Notes under the pieces: model-generated
Database searches by the model: none
The model's input: the letters and a program-made list of their open reading frames with translations, nothing else
Told to the model about the DNA's origin: nothing
DNA from: Achromobacter deleyi
Lineage (GTDB): Bacteria > Pseudomonadota > Gammaproteobacteria > Burkholderiales > Burkholderiaceae_B
NCBI RefSeq assembly: GCF_902859705.1
Contig: NZ_CADIJO010000017.1
Location: forward strand, 1 to 64,000
Reading direction: 5' to 3'
DNA: 64,000 nucleotides
Program-made: the position numbers and the translations under genes
Shown: piece after piece, positions 56,767 through 64,000 of the stretch
Layout of the letters: each line of letters starts with the position of its first letter
How positions within the stretch are numbered: the first letter of the stretch is position 1

Positions 56767-57519
56767 TCAGGCTAGATTCAAGATATCGCACGGCGCTAGG
56801 GCTTCGCGTAGCCTGTCCTTCATTGAGTTGTTCATATCCACGAACCACTCAGGTTTGAGTTCCGCTGCTGCAGCCATCGCTTTGGCCCAATCCGGCATCA
56901 CATGTGAGTTATGAACAGCGGTGCGCGTGTCAGCAATAGCGGCTTGTGGATCAATGGCCGCTTGGAAGACACCTGCGTTGTTCAATGTGTCGAAGATCAC
57001 GCCACCGATCACCGACTCACACTTCGTGATGATGTTCAGCACGTATTTATCGAAGGCATGGAAAGTCCTGGTCTTTGCTGGATTCGTAGCGTTGTTTTGG
57101 AAACTCGGTTCCGCGATAAGCATCGGGAAATCACCGGCCATGTGACAGGCTGAGGTGATGTCGTATCCGCGATGGACGATGGCGTTTCTCAGGTACTTGA
57201 TGTACTCGTAATTCAACTCACCGTCCTGAAATCCAGGGAAGACAAATCGCGCATACAACTCAGCCTCGAAAGACTTCGGCGGTAGTGGTGCCGGTTCGCG
57301 CATTAGCTCAGTTGCGGACAATAGATTCTGGAAATAGGCGCTGTACTGCACGCGCATATCAGTGTGTGTGAGCGTGGTGAGTGGCGTGCGAAACGACAAG
57401 GCTGCTCGCAGCGCGGTCTTCCGTGCCGCCATATACCAAGTCAACGCATGCAGCATATCTCGAGTTTCGGGGCTCAGTATTGTCATACGCATTTCCGACC
57501 GATGGTTATGCTCGGGCAT
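56767..57519 (-). CDS. Protein of unknown function with HEPN-like Rx4H motif
   Basis: I do not recognise the family. The 250-residue, mostly helical protein has an R-N-A-I-V-H motif at residues 111-116 within LNYEYIKYLRNAIVHRGYDI. This fits the R-x4-6-H active-site pattern of HEPN ribonucleases, where Arg is often followed by a polar residue such as Asn, Asp or His. No membrane segment or signal peptide is visible. Starts at 57519, 57492 and 57486 are possible; the last has a GGA spaced 7 bases. Codon use is more A/T-rich than in the core genes. It lies between the Imm11-like gene and the palindrome, with no clear partner antitoxin. Confidence 0.5.
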   Translation of the reverse strand: MPEHNHRSEMRMTILSPETRDMLHALTWYMAARKTALRAALSFRTPLTTLTHTDMRVQYSAYFQNLLSATELMREPAPLPPKSFEAELYARFVFPGFQDGELNYEYIKYLRNAIVHRGYDITSACHMAGDFPMLIAEPSFQNNATNPAKTRTFHAFDKYVLNIITKCESVIGGVIFDTLNNAGVFQAAIDPQAAIADTRTAVHNSHVMPDWAKAMAAAAELKPEWFVDMNNSMKDRLREALAPCDILNLA

Positions 57520-57632
57520 CGTACTCGCAATTTGTTACCCGTACACTCACCTAACATCTTCGGCCGGAAGGTAAGTCATTAAGGGCGTGGCAGTCCCCCC
57601 GATCAGTGACCGCAACCGGCCGGAAACAAAGA

Positions 57633-57696
57633 AAATAAGGTGCCAGACTATGTTTTCGACGAGTACCCCTCGAATACATAGTCTGGCACCTTATTT
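57633..57696. repeat. 64-bp near-perfect palindrome, probable dispersed element
   Basis: AAATAAGGTGCCAGACTATG (from 57633) is matched exactly by its reverse complement ending at 57696, giving a 21-bp perfect arm. After one mismatch (57654 and 57675) five more pairs follow, leaving a 10-base loop. GGTGCCAGACTATG/CATAGTCTGGCACC-type hairpins resemble the REP-like sequences associated with RAYT transposases. No such transposase is present here. The right arm directly abuts the autotransporter remnant. Confidence 0.85.
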
Positions 57697-57698
57697 CC

Positions 57699-58028
57699 TT
57701 GGCATGGAACCAACTGCGCACGCGCGACTTCCAGGAATCGGGCGGATAGGCGGCGCTGCGAGGGTCGGGCAATACCGACGACGTGACCAGCACCACGCTG
57801 GGCATGCGCGGCTCGTGGGAGTTTGAGTCCAAGGGCGCCCCGGGCTGCGTGACCGCGTCGCTGGGCTGGCGCGATGCCATGGGGGATGTCAAACCCAGGC
57901 AGAAACTGGCGTTTGAAGGCGGCAACACGTTCTCCGTAACGGGCGTGCCGATTGCGCGGAATACAGCGGCGGAGGTTGCGTATGACGCGCAGTTTGGCGG
58001 CGGGAATCGGCAGCAGTCGGGGGGCTGA
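57699..58028 (+). pseudogene. Autotransporter barrel fragment (decayed)
   Basis: The translation reads WNQLRTRDFQESGG, a TAG stop at 57747, AALRGSGNTDDVTSTTLGMR, then ASLGWRDAMGDVKPRQKLAF and TVTG-like VTGVPIARNTAAEV. It ends YDAQFGGGNRQQSGG. This matches the last part of pertactin/BrkA-type translocator barrels (FxESGGxAALRG, TTTLGxRGSW, LGWRHAxGDV, FEGGNxFTVxGxPIA). It lacks everything before and the last roughly 30 residues, which include the final strand. It starts abruptly at the palindrome. Its G+C is high, like the core, in contrast to flanking island genes. Confidence 0.8.
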
Positions 58029-58427: not shown

Positions 58428-61400
58428 TTGGGGGTAACACGACCATATTTCAGTTTGAGCATTGGGGATTTGGAATCCATCTTTGAGCAGGCTCGCAGCA
58501 ACCAAGATATCTTGGCGCTACTTCAGAGCGAACTCAATTACCGAAAAACTGAGCGAGCAACGCAATTGGCGAACCTCATTCGGGGAAGCATGGCGCCTCA
58601 GCGTGAGATTTCCACGGCAAAAACCAGCCCTGCTCAAAATTCTCCAGAAAACCAGCCTTCTTCTCAGCCCACCAAGCGGAAAATTCAGCCTCAGAGAAGT
58701 CAGCCCATCACACCTGCCAATCTGCACGGCGCACGTCCTGTGCCCGCCCAGCCAACTGCTAGCGCACGATTCCCCACGCGACGAGTCTCACCCACCGACA
58801 GACGCGCAGATGATCCTGTCTCGATCATTGAGGCCTGGACTGCGATGGAAGCACTTTCTCCGCAGACCTACCGTCAGCCGGCGGATTTGGCCAATGGCGA
58901 TGCGCGCTGCATCGCGCAACTCGATCAAGACCTATTGCCTTGGCAGCGCGATGAAAAATCTCGCCCGAACTATCAACTGTTCTATCAGGTTGTGTTTGGC
59001 GCAATTGATATGGAGGTTGCCACTGAAGCTCTGACCCAGACATACGGAGCGGAAGAAGAAAGAAGCGCTCGTACGCGGGAAAAGTCTGCCATTGCGGCAG
59101 TTTTAGTGGACCGCATTGGGAATCTGGTCCAGGAAAAAGGCGTCGCCATATCCAGCTTTGCCTGGGCATTGCCTGTTGCCTTGGAAGGCGATATCACCCG
59201 CTTGGGTGAATGGGCTGATCTGGAAGAGCGCCTAGTCAAAGATTTTACCGAACACTTGGTAGAGCATGACAAACATGGTGAGCCTCTGCCCATGAGTCGA
59301 AAATTGATCGATGATGCATTCAAATGGCTAGTCGAGAGACTGCAAATTCCCGCAGATTTTTATCAAGCTCCGAAATTCTCGTTCAGGGTCTACCACTACT
59401 ACAAGGCCAAAAACCCACCCGAAGTCTCTCTACTGAACTCGTTTTATCTGAATGATCTGGCGAGAATTCGAAAGTTGGTGGCTGCCAACGAGGTCACGCC
59501 CGCCCTTGCCCGCTATATTGGTCTGCAATCAGTTGGGCATAGCTCTGACCTACTGAGTAATCGCGATCTAATCGAAGAGCTCATCGCCCCCAAGAGCTTC
59601 CCTCAAGCACGTTGGCCTGCTCCTGGCGGGCATTCTCTCGTGACGCTGCAACAGGCTGCGGTGAATGCAACGCGTAGCTCCATTGCTCAAACGCCAGGTA
59701 TCGCGGCGGTGAACGGCCCACCCGGAACTGGGAAGACGACACTGCTGCGCGATATTGTCGCGGCTTGCGTAATGGACCGTGCAACGGCCATGGCCAGATT
59801 CGACGATCCCACCCTGGCCTTTGAAACTACCGGGATCAAAATTCCAGCGGGTGATCGCGCGTTTTTTCACTTGTACCGGATAGACTCGTCGCTAAGAGGC
59901 CATGAAATCATCGTTGCCTCAAGCAACAACAAGGCCGTTGAGAACGTCAGTCGCGAACTGCCCTCTTCCAAGGCGATTGGCCGAGATTTTCAGTATTTCA
60001 AGACTATTTCTGACCGGCTCAACACAACCCGCGCTGAACAAGGCACGAAGCCTCCTGAAGAAACCACATGGGGCCTGATTGCAGCCGTGCTTGGTAATGC
60101 GGAGAATCGGAGTGCTTTCCAGCAGACCATCTGGTTCGACCCGGATTACAGCCTACGCATCTATCTAAAGGCCGCCAAAGGTGATTCGGTAATTCGCGAA
60201 GTTCGTGATAGCACCGGAAAACTCATCCGACGCGAAATACCCATCATTGTCACGAAAGAGGCACCACCGTCGCCTGAGCAAGCCAGGACAGAATGGGCGA
60301 AGACCCGCCGCCACTTCCAGACATTGAAAAATGAACTGGACAGGGAATTGTCCCATCTGGAAGCGATCCGGCAAGAATGCCTGAAGCTACCCAATGCTCG
60401 TCACGCCGTCACTGTGGCCCAACAAGCGCATCAACGCGATCAGGCGGCATACGAACGCCTTTCAGCGCTTACGCAAGAGATCAAATCCCAGTTGACTCGC
60501 GCCGAACACGCGCTGCGAAACGCCGAAGCCAGCGAGCAGACCGCACGCTCATCCAAACCCTGGTGGCTGCATCGAATATTCAATACTTGTCGTTATCGAG
60601 ACTGGGAAGTTCAATATGCGCCTCTTGTCGAAAAAGCGCGAGATCTGCGCAATGCTGTCGCTCAATCAAGAAGGGATTATCTGGCTGCGCAAAGTGCCAG
60701 TGACGAAGCAGAACTTAAGCACGCACTCAGCCACCAGGCCCTCGAAACACGCTTGCACGAACTGGAACGGCTACAACTAGCGATAGCAGACCATAAAGAG
60801 AATATTGGCAAACACCTGGTGGGCGACGATTTCTTTTCCCAAGGCCATGAAGCTTGGAATCTGGCCACACCTTGGATCCCCCCGGCCATCCAGGGCAAAC
60901 GAGAGGAACTCTTTGAAGCCTCGATGGCATTGCATCGCGCCTTCATCAACGTCAACGCACAACGGGTCTCCCACAACTTCGGCGCTCTTATGGGCGCCAT
61001 GCAAGCCGGCGCGTTTCAGGACCCAGCCAAACTGGCGCTACTGGGTGACCTCTGGACTACCCTATTTCTGATCTGCCCGGTCGTATCGACGACTTTTGCG
61101 TCGGTCGACCGCATGCTGGGCGACTTGCCTCCGGCATCCTTTGGTTGGCTCCTGTTGGACGAAGCCGGCCAAGCAACACCGCAGGCAGCAGCCGGCGCCA
61201 TGATGCGCGCTCAACGCGCAGTCGTTGTGGGCGATCCCCTACAAATCCCCCCGGTCGTATCGCTGCCTACGATGTTGACCGAACAGATCGCCAAGCACTT
61301 CAATATCAATAACGTCCGTTGGCTGGCCCCGGATGCATCGGCCCAGACGTTGGCGGACGAAGCCTCGTATCACCGTGCCGAATTCCAAGCCAGCGCAGGC

Positions 61401-62015
61401 ACACGCGAAGTCGGCCTGCCCTTGCTGGTACATCGTCGATGTCAGGATCCAATGTTTCGCATCGCCAACGACATTGCCTACGATGGGCAAATGGTGCACG
61501 CCGCCGGCAGGCCTTCGATCAGCAAAATTGTCGATATCTTGGGTGAAGCGCGGTGGTTTGATGTAGATGGCACAGGAGACTCCAAGTGGTGCCCAGCCGA
61601 AGGCAAGCTCGTACTGGACCTGCTGCACCGGCTATCCGAGGGTGGCGTAACTGCTCCAGATATTTACATCATTACGCCCTTCCGTATCGTTGCCAACGAA
61701 CTTCGGCAGTTGCTCCGGCAGGAAGAGGCACTATTCAAAACCTTTAACGTGGACATGAATGCTTGGCTAAAAGAACGTGTTGGCACCATTCATACCTTCC
61801 AAGGCAAGGAGGCCGAAGCGGTCATTGCGGTTTTGGGAGCCCCGATGAAGGCGCAACAGGGTGCCAGATCGTGGGCGACTAGCACGCCCAACATTCTGAA
61901 TGTGATGGTATCTCGCGCTAAGCGGACCATGTACGTAGTCGGCTCCAGAACATCCTGGTCCACGTCGGGGCATGGTCGAACGATGGCGAAATTCCTGGAT
62001 AGCCACATCAATTGA
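58428..62015 (+). CDS. Large superfamily 1 (UPF1/DNA2-like) helicase
   Basis: A 1195-residue ATP-dependent helicase with all SF1 motifs: I GPPGTGKTTLLRD near residue 430, II LLLDEAGQATPQ near 911, III VVVGDPLQIPPVVSLP, IV LLVHRRCQDPMF, V IHTFQGKEAEAVI and VI LNVMVSRAKRTMYVVG near 1163. Between motifs I and II lies an insert of over 400 residues with long coiled coils. The N-terminal 100 residues include a Ser/Gln/Pro-rich linker. The TTG start has AGGGG 8 bases upstream; the frame is open to a GTG at 58338. DNA or RNA as substrate cannot be decided. A PIN-like gene follows after 93 bases. Confidence 0.88.
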   Translation: MGVTRPYFSLSIGDLESIFEQARSNQDILALLQSELNYRKTERATQLANLIRGSMAPQREISTAKTSPAQNSPENQPSSQPTKRKIQPQRSQPITPANLHGARPVPAQPTASARFPTRRVSPTDRRADDPVSIIEAWTAMEALSPQTYRQPADLANGDARCIAQLDQDLLPWQRDEKSRPNYQLFYQVVFGAIDMEVATEALTQTYGAEEERSARTREKSAIAAVLVDRIGNLVQEKGVAISSFAWALPVALEGDITRLGEWADLEERLVKDFTEHLVEHDKHGEPLPMSRKLIDDAFKWLVERLQIPADFYQAPKFSFRVYHYYKAKNPPEVSLLNSFYLNDLARIRKLVAANEVTPALARYIGLQSVGHSSDLLSNRDLIEELIAPKSFPQARWPAPGGHSLVTLQQAAVNATRSSIAQTPGIAAVNGPPGTGKTTLLRDIVAACVMDRATAMARFDDPTLAFETTGIKIPAGDRAFFHLYRIDSSLRGHEIIVASSNNKAVENVSRELPSSKAIGRDFQYFKTISDRLNTTRAEQGTKPPEETTWGLIAAVLGNAENRSAFQQTIWFDPDYSLRIYLKAAKGDSVIREVRDSTGKLIRREIPIIVTKEAPPSPEQARTEWAKTRRHFQTLKNELDRELSHLEAIRQECLKLPNARHAVTVAQQAHQRDQAAYERLSALTQEIKSQLTRAEHALRNAEASEQTARSSKPWWLHRIFNTCRYRDWEVQYAPLVEKARDLRNAVAQSRRDYLAAQSASDEAELKHALSHQALETRLHELERLQLAIADHKENIGKHLVGDDFFSQGHEAWNLATPWIPPAIQGKREELFEASMALHRAFINVNAQRVSHNFGALMGAMQAGAFQDPAKLALLGDLWTTLFLICPVVSTTFASVDRMLGDLPPASFGWLLLDEAGQATPQAAAGAMMRAQRAVVVGDPLQIPPVVSLPTMLTEQIAKHFNINNVRWLAPDASAQTLADEASYHRAEFQASAGTREVGLPLLVHRRCQDPMFRIANDIAYDGQMVHAAGRPSISKIVDILGEARWFDVDGTGDSKWCPAEGKLVLDLLHRLSEGGVTAPDIYIITPFRIVANELRQLLRQEEALFKTFNVDMNAWLKERVGTIHTFQGKEAEAVIAVLGAPMKAQQGARSWATSTPNILNVMVSRAKRTMYVVGSRTSWSTSGHGRTMAKFLDSHIN

Positions 62016-62108
62016 AAGGTCTGTTATCGGCCAAAAGCAGTCATTCATATGTGACTACTATCGGCAAGACATATATTTCATCTTCAACTTTCGAGAACAC
62101 CCGCACAC

Positions 62109-63152
62109 ATGAATGAAGCCATCCCCTACGACCAGCGCTGTCACCGCACCGAGTCAGGAGTTGCCGTTATTTGGCCGTTCCTAAACGTTCAGCGGAGCCG
62201 AGGAGAACTTGAGCTTTTCTTGGACACCAATGCCCTCACCAGGTCTCAGTGGCTGTCCGAACTATCTGAAGATCTGCTTCGATATTGCGTGGTAAATCCT
62301 TGGATGGCAATCCAAGAACAGTGGTTTTCTAACTCCTGCTTTCGCAATGACCCCGAGAGCCGTATCAATGGCTGGATCGAAAATCTTGCGCAGTACGGCG
62401 TCAAGTTCCGCCCAGGATACGCAAGCGATCAAGTTCAGTTATTGATAAAAAACGAAAGGGCGCTTCGCAGGCAGTTCAGTTCGATAGTTCCATTCGTCGC
62501 AATCATGAAGTGCCTGCTGTCGCAGAAGATGCCGGTCGATGAATCGCTGGCACGCTTGAAAGAAATGGGACAGTCCGACATTCCGCGTTTCACAGGTGTG
62601 ATTGCGCTGACAGCGCTGGGGGTTTCGCTAAAGAAGCAGCAGGCATTCAAGTGGGAAAGAGACCCCAAACCTGCCTACTCTTACCTCTCGTCTTTCTTGG
62701 ATTTCCAACCGGCGGGCAAAGACGAGAGCGACTACATGAACGTCTCGTACCTCCGTAATCGCGCTGGGGATCTGAATACATGGCTGGCACTACCAGTTCT
62801 GCGCCAACTGGGATATTCGATCGGTAGCCATTCCGCGCTGGCTACCGGTGACAAGGCCCTCCATCGGCTCATCTTTCGGGCGATTCCCCCGGTCATGATG
62901 CCCACTGGAGCGACCAGTTTCAGTGTGGCGCCCAATGAACTCTCTCAAGAGACTTTTGAACGCGTCGTCGGGGTTGCCCGAAGCTTGCAGGCTCGAGAAA
63001 TATCTACTCTTGATGAGCAACTTGCGAGAATGAAGACAGTGTTCAACCTCGCCAGGACGTGGACTAATGATCAACGCGAGCGCGATGCGCTAGATGAGAT
63101 GCTCTCCGAATGGTGGCTACCGGGCCATGGAATGGAGATCAAGCCACTGTGA
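62109..63152 (+). CDS. PIN-like nuclease candidate paired with the helicase
   Basis: A 347-residue protein with no family I can name, but with the four-acid PIN nuclease pattern. The first strand ELELFLDTNAL has Asp39, VVNPWMAIQEQWF has Glu70, NRAGDLNTWLALPVLRQLGY has Asp221, and SHSALATGDKALHRLI has Asp248 (the last two match the xxD...A and TxDkxL motifs). A helical insert of about 140 residues separates Glu70 from Asp221, much longer than in VapC toxins. It lies 93 bases after the helicase gene on the same strand. The ribosome site is weak. A/T-rich codon use matches the helicase gene. Confidence 0.6.
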   Translation: MNEAIPYDQRCHRTESGVAVIWPFLNVQRSRGELELFLDTNALTRSQWLSELSEDLLRYCVVNPWMAIQEQWFSNSCFRNDPESRINGWIENLAQYGVKFRPGYASDQVQLLIKNERALRRQFSSIVPFVAIMKCLLSQKMPVDESLARLKEMGQSDIPRFTGVIALTALGVSLKKQQAFKWERDPKPAYSYLSSFLDFQPAGKDESDYMNVSYLRNRAGDLNTWLALPVLRQLGYSIGSHSALATGDKALHRLIFRAIPPVMMPTGATSFSVAPNELSQETFERVVGVARSLQAREISTLDEQLARMKTVFNLARTWTNDQRERDALDEMLSEWWLPGHGMEIKPL

Positions 63153-63426
63153 GTCGCGGAGCGACACGGCTTGATGCACTCGCCTGCTGGTACTTAGTGC
63201 AGGGCTTTTTCGGCTGTCTAACGGGGCCAAGGCCAGCTTGCGAGCCTCAAATTCGGTGCGCCGGATGACTGCAATGGGTCGGAAGCGGCCCGTCGCCGGC
63301 GACAGCCCGTCTTCTTTTCGAGATTCGGCTGAAAGCTCCCCACCCGTAGGCAAGATCGTGGTGCGGTCGTGTCTTTCTGCGATAAGCCCAAGGTGGAACA
63401 GGGCTGTCGGTTCTTGCCCCCCGACA

Positions 63427-64000
63427 TCACACCTTATTCAGCACCTCCACATCCAAGTCTGTATCCGGCCTTCTCGCAGATTCACCCGCCTGCCCCCCTT
63501 TAACAGCCTGCTGCGCCCGCCGTGCCTGTTTGTCTGCATACATAAGCTGATCAGCCTGCTTGAGGGCGGCTTGCAACGAACTGACGGCGGGATCCACGGT
63601 GACGATGCCAAAGCTTGCACCTCGATAGTGGAAACTGCACTCGGCGGCGGTGTAGGTACCGATCAGCGGCTGCGCCAGCCGGTTGCGCATCTCGTCGACG
63701 ACCCTTTGCGGATTGTCGGACCTGGACGGATCCACAAGTCCAATCACAACGAACTCGTCGCCGCCCCATCGACCCAGCATGTCGCTCGCACGGAGACCGG
63801 CCGACATACGCCGGCCCACCTCGATCAGGAATCTGTCGCCGGCCTCATGCCCATAGGTGTCGTTGATGGGTTTGAACCCATCCAGATCGATAAACGCTAC
63901 CAGAACCCATTGCTGTGTCCGCTTCGCCAGCGCAAACAACCGCTCCAATTCAGCCAACACCGCGCGTCGATTCGGCAGGCCGGTCAGCGCGTCATAGTTG
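63427..64000 (-). CDS. GGDEF diguanylate cyclase, C-terminal part (partial at right edge)
   Basis: C-terminal catalytic domain of a diguanylate cyclase, which makes cyclic di-GMP from two GTP. The frame is open at the right edge, so any sensor domain lies outside. The domain starts YDALTGLPNRRAVLAELERL, with IDLDGFKPINDTYGHEAGD, the intact active site RWGGDEFVVIG and an RASD inhibitory site five residues before it (RxxD-x5-GGDEF), so product inhibition is expected. A 60-residue tail rich in Gln/Ala/Lys follows. No EAL domain is present in the visible part. Confidence 0.92.
   Translation of the reverse strand, partial: NYDALTGLPNRRAVLAELERLFALAKRTQQWVLVAFIDLDGFKPINDTYGHEAGDRFLIEVGRRMSAGLRASDMLGRWGGDEFVVIGLVDPSRSDNPQRVVDEMRNRLAQPLIGTYTAAECSFHYRGASFGIVTVDPAVSSLQAALKQADQLMYADKQARRAQQAVKGGQAGESARRPDTDLDVEVLNKV

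Follow-up and report, generated by a model that had tools for sequence, protein, structure and literature searches.

A rare, mobile gene for a putative split-PIN protein, probably independent of the MkoC-like helicase gene beside it in an Achromobacter deleyi island

Introduction

DS-3, reported in 2026 with DefensePredictor (Science), is outlined in that paper as a defence system of one protein, whose PIN domain is split between the N- and the C-terminus; it comes without an antitoxin, and its catalytic residues are required for defence (PMC13092281). On the helicase side, the published account of CoCoNuT types II and III describes CnuH, an SF1 helicase of the UPF1-like kind in which Walker A is followed by a large insert that is helical and in part coiled-coil, and differing effectors are said there to adjoin the UPF1-like helicases of CoCoNuTs (PMC11090510). 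No helicase-PIN pair was met among the titles and abstract openings of a literature collection with few subscription papers or preprints, and PIN terms were absent, by word search, from a preprint on helicase defence (PMC12458937).

Here we analysed a stretch of 64,000 nucleotides from Achromobacter deleyi (contig NZ_CADIJO010000017.1, positions 1 to 64,000; hereafter the window), in which a gene for a large helicase is followed on the same strand, after 93 bases, by a gene for a small protein. The original prediction, made from the letters of the window, took the two for one module and a candidate defence system made of a helicase and a PIN-like nuclease. We examined both genes and their relatives elsewhere (Table 1).

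Results

The expectation of a UPF1/DNA2-type helicase with a long insert held. Its product matched the Pfam families AAA_11 (1.2e-15) and AAA_12 (7.6e-14), Walker A, DEAG, GDP and motif VI were all intact, and motif Ia (at ~506) and motif II (at 911) are separated by about 400 residues. This insert gave weak matches to coil-rich ATPase profiles (E 0.05-0.6). Among solved structures the helicase matched SMUBP-2 (1.5e-11), and an alignment of 14 sequences, including that of the window, contained 110 invariant columns. The frame is read from a TTG at 58428; AGGGG stands 8 nt upstream, and in several close homologues the annotated start falls within a few residues of this position.

With a GC content of 54.9% and 53.4% (GC3 57.4 and 60.3), helicase and small gene are A/T-richer than their surroundings, as had been proposed: the window averages 67.2%, the two genes to the left have 67.8 and 70.3% (GC3 86.9 and 88.8), and the value for a GGDEF fragment on the right is 60.0% (GC3 69.6). 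The foreign, defence-island-like character of the setting was likewise borne out. Its Imm11-like gene could be confirmed (PF07791, 3.3e-66), and the reported palindromic element is an inverted repeat at 57629-57700 with 36-nt arms, no loop and 89% complementarity. Positions 56767-57519 encode a 250-residue protein with a weak match to phrog_23351 (0.0077) and the sequence RNAIVH, which we take to be a HEPN-type R-x4-H motif.

Table 1. Features of the helicase gene, the small gene and the block around the latter (positions in the window)
Feature	Position	Strand	Remarks
SF1 helicase, UPF1-like	58428..62015	+	1,195 aa; ~400-residue insert; N-terminal ~400 residues outside assigned domains
Walker A GPPGTGKT, helicase residues 430-437	59715..59738	+	
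Block common to congener G036	62028..63278	.	1,251 bp, 97.8% DNA identity; proposed moving unit
Left end motif CGGCCAAAAGCAGTCAT	62028..62044	+	
Right end motif, inverted	63265..63281	-	13/17 identical to left
Putative PIN-like protein, 347 aa	62109..63152	+	No match in Pfam, NCBIfam, PADLOC, PHROGs
Invariant Asp39 codon (LELFLDTNAL)	62223..62225	+	Alignment of 8
Invariant Glu70 codon (MAIQEQW)	62316..62318	+	Alignment of 8
~150-residue insert between PIN-like motif halves	62319..62768	+	Mostly helical in low-confidence model
Invariant Asp221 codon (RNRAGDL)	62769..62771	+	Alignment of 8
Invariant Asp248 codon (LATGDKAL)	62850..62852	+	Alignment of 8

To characterize the small gene we compared seven other copies, the products of which are 22-97% identical to that of the window: one in a congener (G036, 97%), one in Janthinobacterium (77%), one in G633, a genome from the same order (22-25%), and four on plasmids of Agrobacterium/Allorhizobium (29-33%). 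An eighth relative (NZ_CP138323.1, 29%) lies outside these seven loci. The gene is rare. Among 268 genomes from the family, 2 carry it, the window's own included, and it was found in 2/398, 2/399 and 1/312 genomes of the phylum, order and class samples, respectively; these samples overlap, the window's own genome counts in each, and the profile used for the order and class samples itself included G633. Among 50,697 phage records there was no match to the small protein at E<=0.01, and viral contigs, searched mostly with small-protein queries, yielded no further relatives.

The alignment of the eight homologues contained 24 invariant columns. Among the 40 acidic residues of the window protein, four are invariant, and they are exactly D39, E70, D221 and D248, the residues that had been singled out beforehand from the single sequence. 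Four acids drawn randomly from 40 would coincide in this way with a chance of 1.1e-5, a figure that has to be read against a choice that was not random. The four are conserved down to 22% identity, and the insert divides them into an N-terminal and a C-terminal pair. They appear in the order D, E, D, D, and three to four ordered conserved acids of this kind mark the PIN superfamily. Their contexts, a hydrophobic stretch followed by DxN, then E, RNRxxDL and T/S-x-D, fit PIN as well.

Comparisons at the level of profiles and folds gave a different picture. None of the eight homologues matched a PIN family of Pfam at E<=10; the single match at this threshold, to a rhamnosidase domain (0.18, one member), is implausible. 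Alignments with hhalign to single members of PIN_3, PIN_8 and PIN_12 were not significant, the reversed controls being better in 4 of 8. Against a PIN_3 alignment, with the insert removed, the best piece was GSHSALATGDKALHRL, in register with the T/S-G-D motif of PIN_3, at E 0.024-0.04 versus 0.048-0.064 for the reversed controls; the lowest value, 0.024, covers 16 columns (reversed 0.048). Searches of solved structures found no credible relative, with two matches at chance level (E 0.91 and 1.1), and an AlphaFold2 model built on a shallow alignment of 2 sequences reached a pLDDT of 37.4. Highly divergent PIN families can miss profile matches. The small protein is therefore likely PIN-like, judging from its sequence pattern, but short of proof: the invariant acids fit, whereas the profile comparisons are insignificant and the model is poor.

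We then asked how often the two genes occur together. The seven other small-gene loci were each covered over 11-19 kb (L002 stops 2 kb downstream of the gene), and none of them held a helicase of the window's type; the best tblastn matches there were short and weak, none better than E 0.018. Conversely, the small gene was absent from all of 17 other helicase loci. The positive controls of the comparison were detected. The 17 loci represent 8 of the 15 other family genomes with the helicase and the best 9 of 576 plasmid records. Within the family the helicase occurs in 16 of 268 genomes (E<=1e-30), and the window's genome is the only one to hold both genes. The congener G036 carries the small gene without a helicase match at this threshold. 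A conserved two-gene helicase-PIN module, with homologues of the two genes regularly adjacent, is thus rejected (0/7 and 0/17 loci). Since the pairing is absent across the other loci examined, the two genes look like separate units. Being on the same strand with a gap of 93 bp, they could nevertheless be co-transcribed; a consensus scan upstream of the small gene revealed no promoter-like site.

The comparison with G036 further separates the genes. The block that the two genomes have in common (Table 1) begins 13 bp past the helicase stop codon and takes in the 81 bp that precede the small gene; in G036 it lies in a different defence island, without the helicase. The small gene keeps its own upstream region where the helicase is missing, and the claim that the two genes form one module found no support. 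The ends of the block carry inverted motifs, and their match was reached by 6 of 2,000 shuffles; the right one straddles the break in homology with G036. As a candidate genome-wide repeat the end motif was discarded: when one mismatch was allowed, the genome had 2 sites, 63267 itself among them, versus 3 for a backwards control. In a search for an empty site, similarity to six relatives returned at 63424-63513 on the side of the GGDEF fragment; the island's left side was not placed.

The seven small-gene loci lie in defence-rich or mobile stretches, an assignment that rests on annotation at two of them and on the interpretation of open reading frames at a third. The G036 copy is found beside PhoD-like, TIR/ThsB and GTPase-associated system genes. 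The island around it (L027:3447-17071) encodes DO-GTPase2, GASH, GAAD-metallophosphatase, DUF4062 and PhoD_2 proteins, together with three TIR/ThsB-like genes. SIR2-HerA lies near the copy in L002 and HEC-05 near that in L003. Annotation places SAVED and Shedu/AbiE genes near the copies in L005 and L006, and in G633, where open reading frames were interpreted by eye, transfer-like and AbiEii-like genes are nearby. An Allorhizobium plasmid (L004:10338-15553) carries Mokosh type I (MkoA 9.6e-208, MkoB 9.1e-84) close to its small-gene copy. This MkoA is a different SF1 helicase, encoded with MkoB on the other strand ~2 kb downstream of that copy, and L003 holds a close relative of the MkoA gene (88%). 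Across the loci compared, which did not include L101, the only neighbour genes to recur are those common to the related plasmids L003 and L004.

Relatives of the helicase have neighbours of another kind. In three of the eight annotated plasmid loci (L040, L045 and L047), the next gene after the helicase encodes an Mrr_cat endonuclease, and the spacing ranges from an overlap of 1 base to a gap of 75 bp. Two of these three loci are from Agrobacterium and may not be independent, and a ninth plasmid locus, L043, is unannotated. The other five annotated loci have no annotated same-strand gene within 400 bp after the helicase. These combinations of helicase and type IV-like Mrr_cat gene, on three plasmids (L040:6992-12261, L045:7001-12100 and L047:6992-12261), are a better candidate for a helicase-nuclease pair than the two genes of the window.

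Discussion

We consider it probable that the window holds two independent single-gene cassettes with anti-phage or anti-plasmid roles, placed side by side: a split-PIN RNase and an MkoC-like helicase without a PLD part. For the small protein we infer a PIN fold, RNase activity, autoinhibition and a role in defence. It would be a stand-alone PIN-like RNase, with an active site assembled from its N-terminal (D39, E70) and C-terminal (D221, D248) halves, and its gene would spread as a cassette of ~1.25 kb that includes the upstream region. Because no conserved partner or antitoxin gene is adjacent, the insert itself most likely restrains the nuclease until an infection signal releases it; the released enzyme would then cut RNA and phage growth would stop. 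By analogy, the small protein may work as DS-3, through RNA cleavage that is held back by the insert and released by infection. The solitary helicase presumably translocates on invading nucleic acid, most likely acting alone or with host nucleases.

Whether the small protein is a PIN at all bears on this reading. It might be a defence-island protein of another fold whose four acids belong to a metal site of another type, and the lack of family or profile support and the low pLDDT of the model would suit such a protein. Its sole invariant acids, however, are precisely the four of PIN, in the right order and contexts, and we regard another fold as unlikely. A recent local two-gene system is doubtful to a higher degree. 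Here a nuclease-less helicase would use whichever downstream nuclease is present: PLD fused in MkoC, an Mrr-type enzyme in some plasmids and the PIN-like protein in the window. The shared strand and the short gap speak for it, as do the extent of the MkoC match, which covers the helicase up to, and excluding, the PLD part, the Mrr_cat genes behind close helicase relatives and the varied effectors of CoCoNuT helicases as described (PMC11090510); yet the helicase is missing from all seven other small-gene loci examined, and the block common to G036 starts just past the helicase stop and brings along the upstream region of the small gene. We therefore think a local partnership of helicase and PIN unlikely. 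The wider idea that nuclease-less MkoC-like helicases are a plug-in platform to which PLD, Mrr or split PIN is supplied in trans, the window being a fresh combination, strikes us as a long shot.

Least probable of all is a cargo reading, in which neither gene serves defence and both merely travel with the island, for instance as RNA maintenance genes. Defence is deduced from the neighbourhood only, and some helicase relatives of the same genus lie among apparent housekeeping genes (open reading frames interpreted by eye), but the defence-rich or mobile stretches around the seven small-gene loci do not suit mere cargo. A counter-point to two independent cassettes is the other SF1 helicase, MkoA, so near the small-gene copy in L004. 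Taken together, the guess of a nuclease gains support and that of a two-gene system loses it. Short same-strand gaps in defence islands do not prove a system, and here a close relative has one of the two genes alone. The small gene stands for an unclassified single-gene family, rare and mobile, whose catalytic pattern is of the PIN type and which would add to the defence-island repertoire.

Among known systems, the helicase is nearest to Mokosh. Its residues 402-1182 correspond to positions 247-952 of the profile of MkoC, the Mokosh type II protein (E 9.5e-61). In contrast to MkoC it has no C-terminal PLD part and no HxKx4D motif; that part, placed by the MkoB match at MkoC 986-1117, lies beyond the end of the helicase match. 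Mokosh type I needs a separate PLD partner, MkoB, whereas the protein downstream in the window has no PADLOC match. In the layout of its insert the helicase is like CnuH, going by the published description of the latter (PMC11090510); the CoCoNuT components CnuB, an McrB-like GTPase, and CnuC, a coiled-coil protein, were absent among the four island proteins scanned. The small protein shows no significant sequence or profile match to PIN_8 (PF18476). By eye, two PIN_8 proteins (L053 and L080) nonetheless share with it DTN, E, a long helical insert, GD and T-x-D/E; their open frames are longer, at 535 and 499 residues, and include additional parts at the C-terminus. A blastn search of 20,395 E. 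coli records with the DNA of the small gene gave no match; such a search is blind to distant protein relatives. In plan, the small-gene family comes close to the system reported in 2026: as far as DS-3's description goes, both combine a split PIN, or PIN-like pattern, with a single protein and no antitoxin, and the family offers four residues for mutation.
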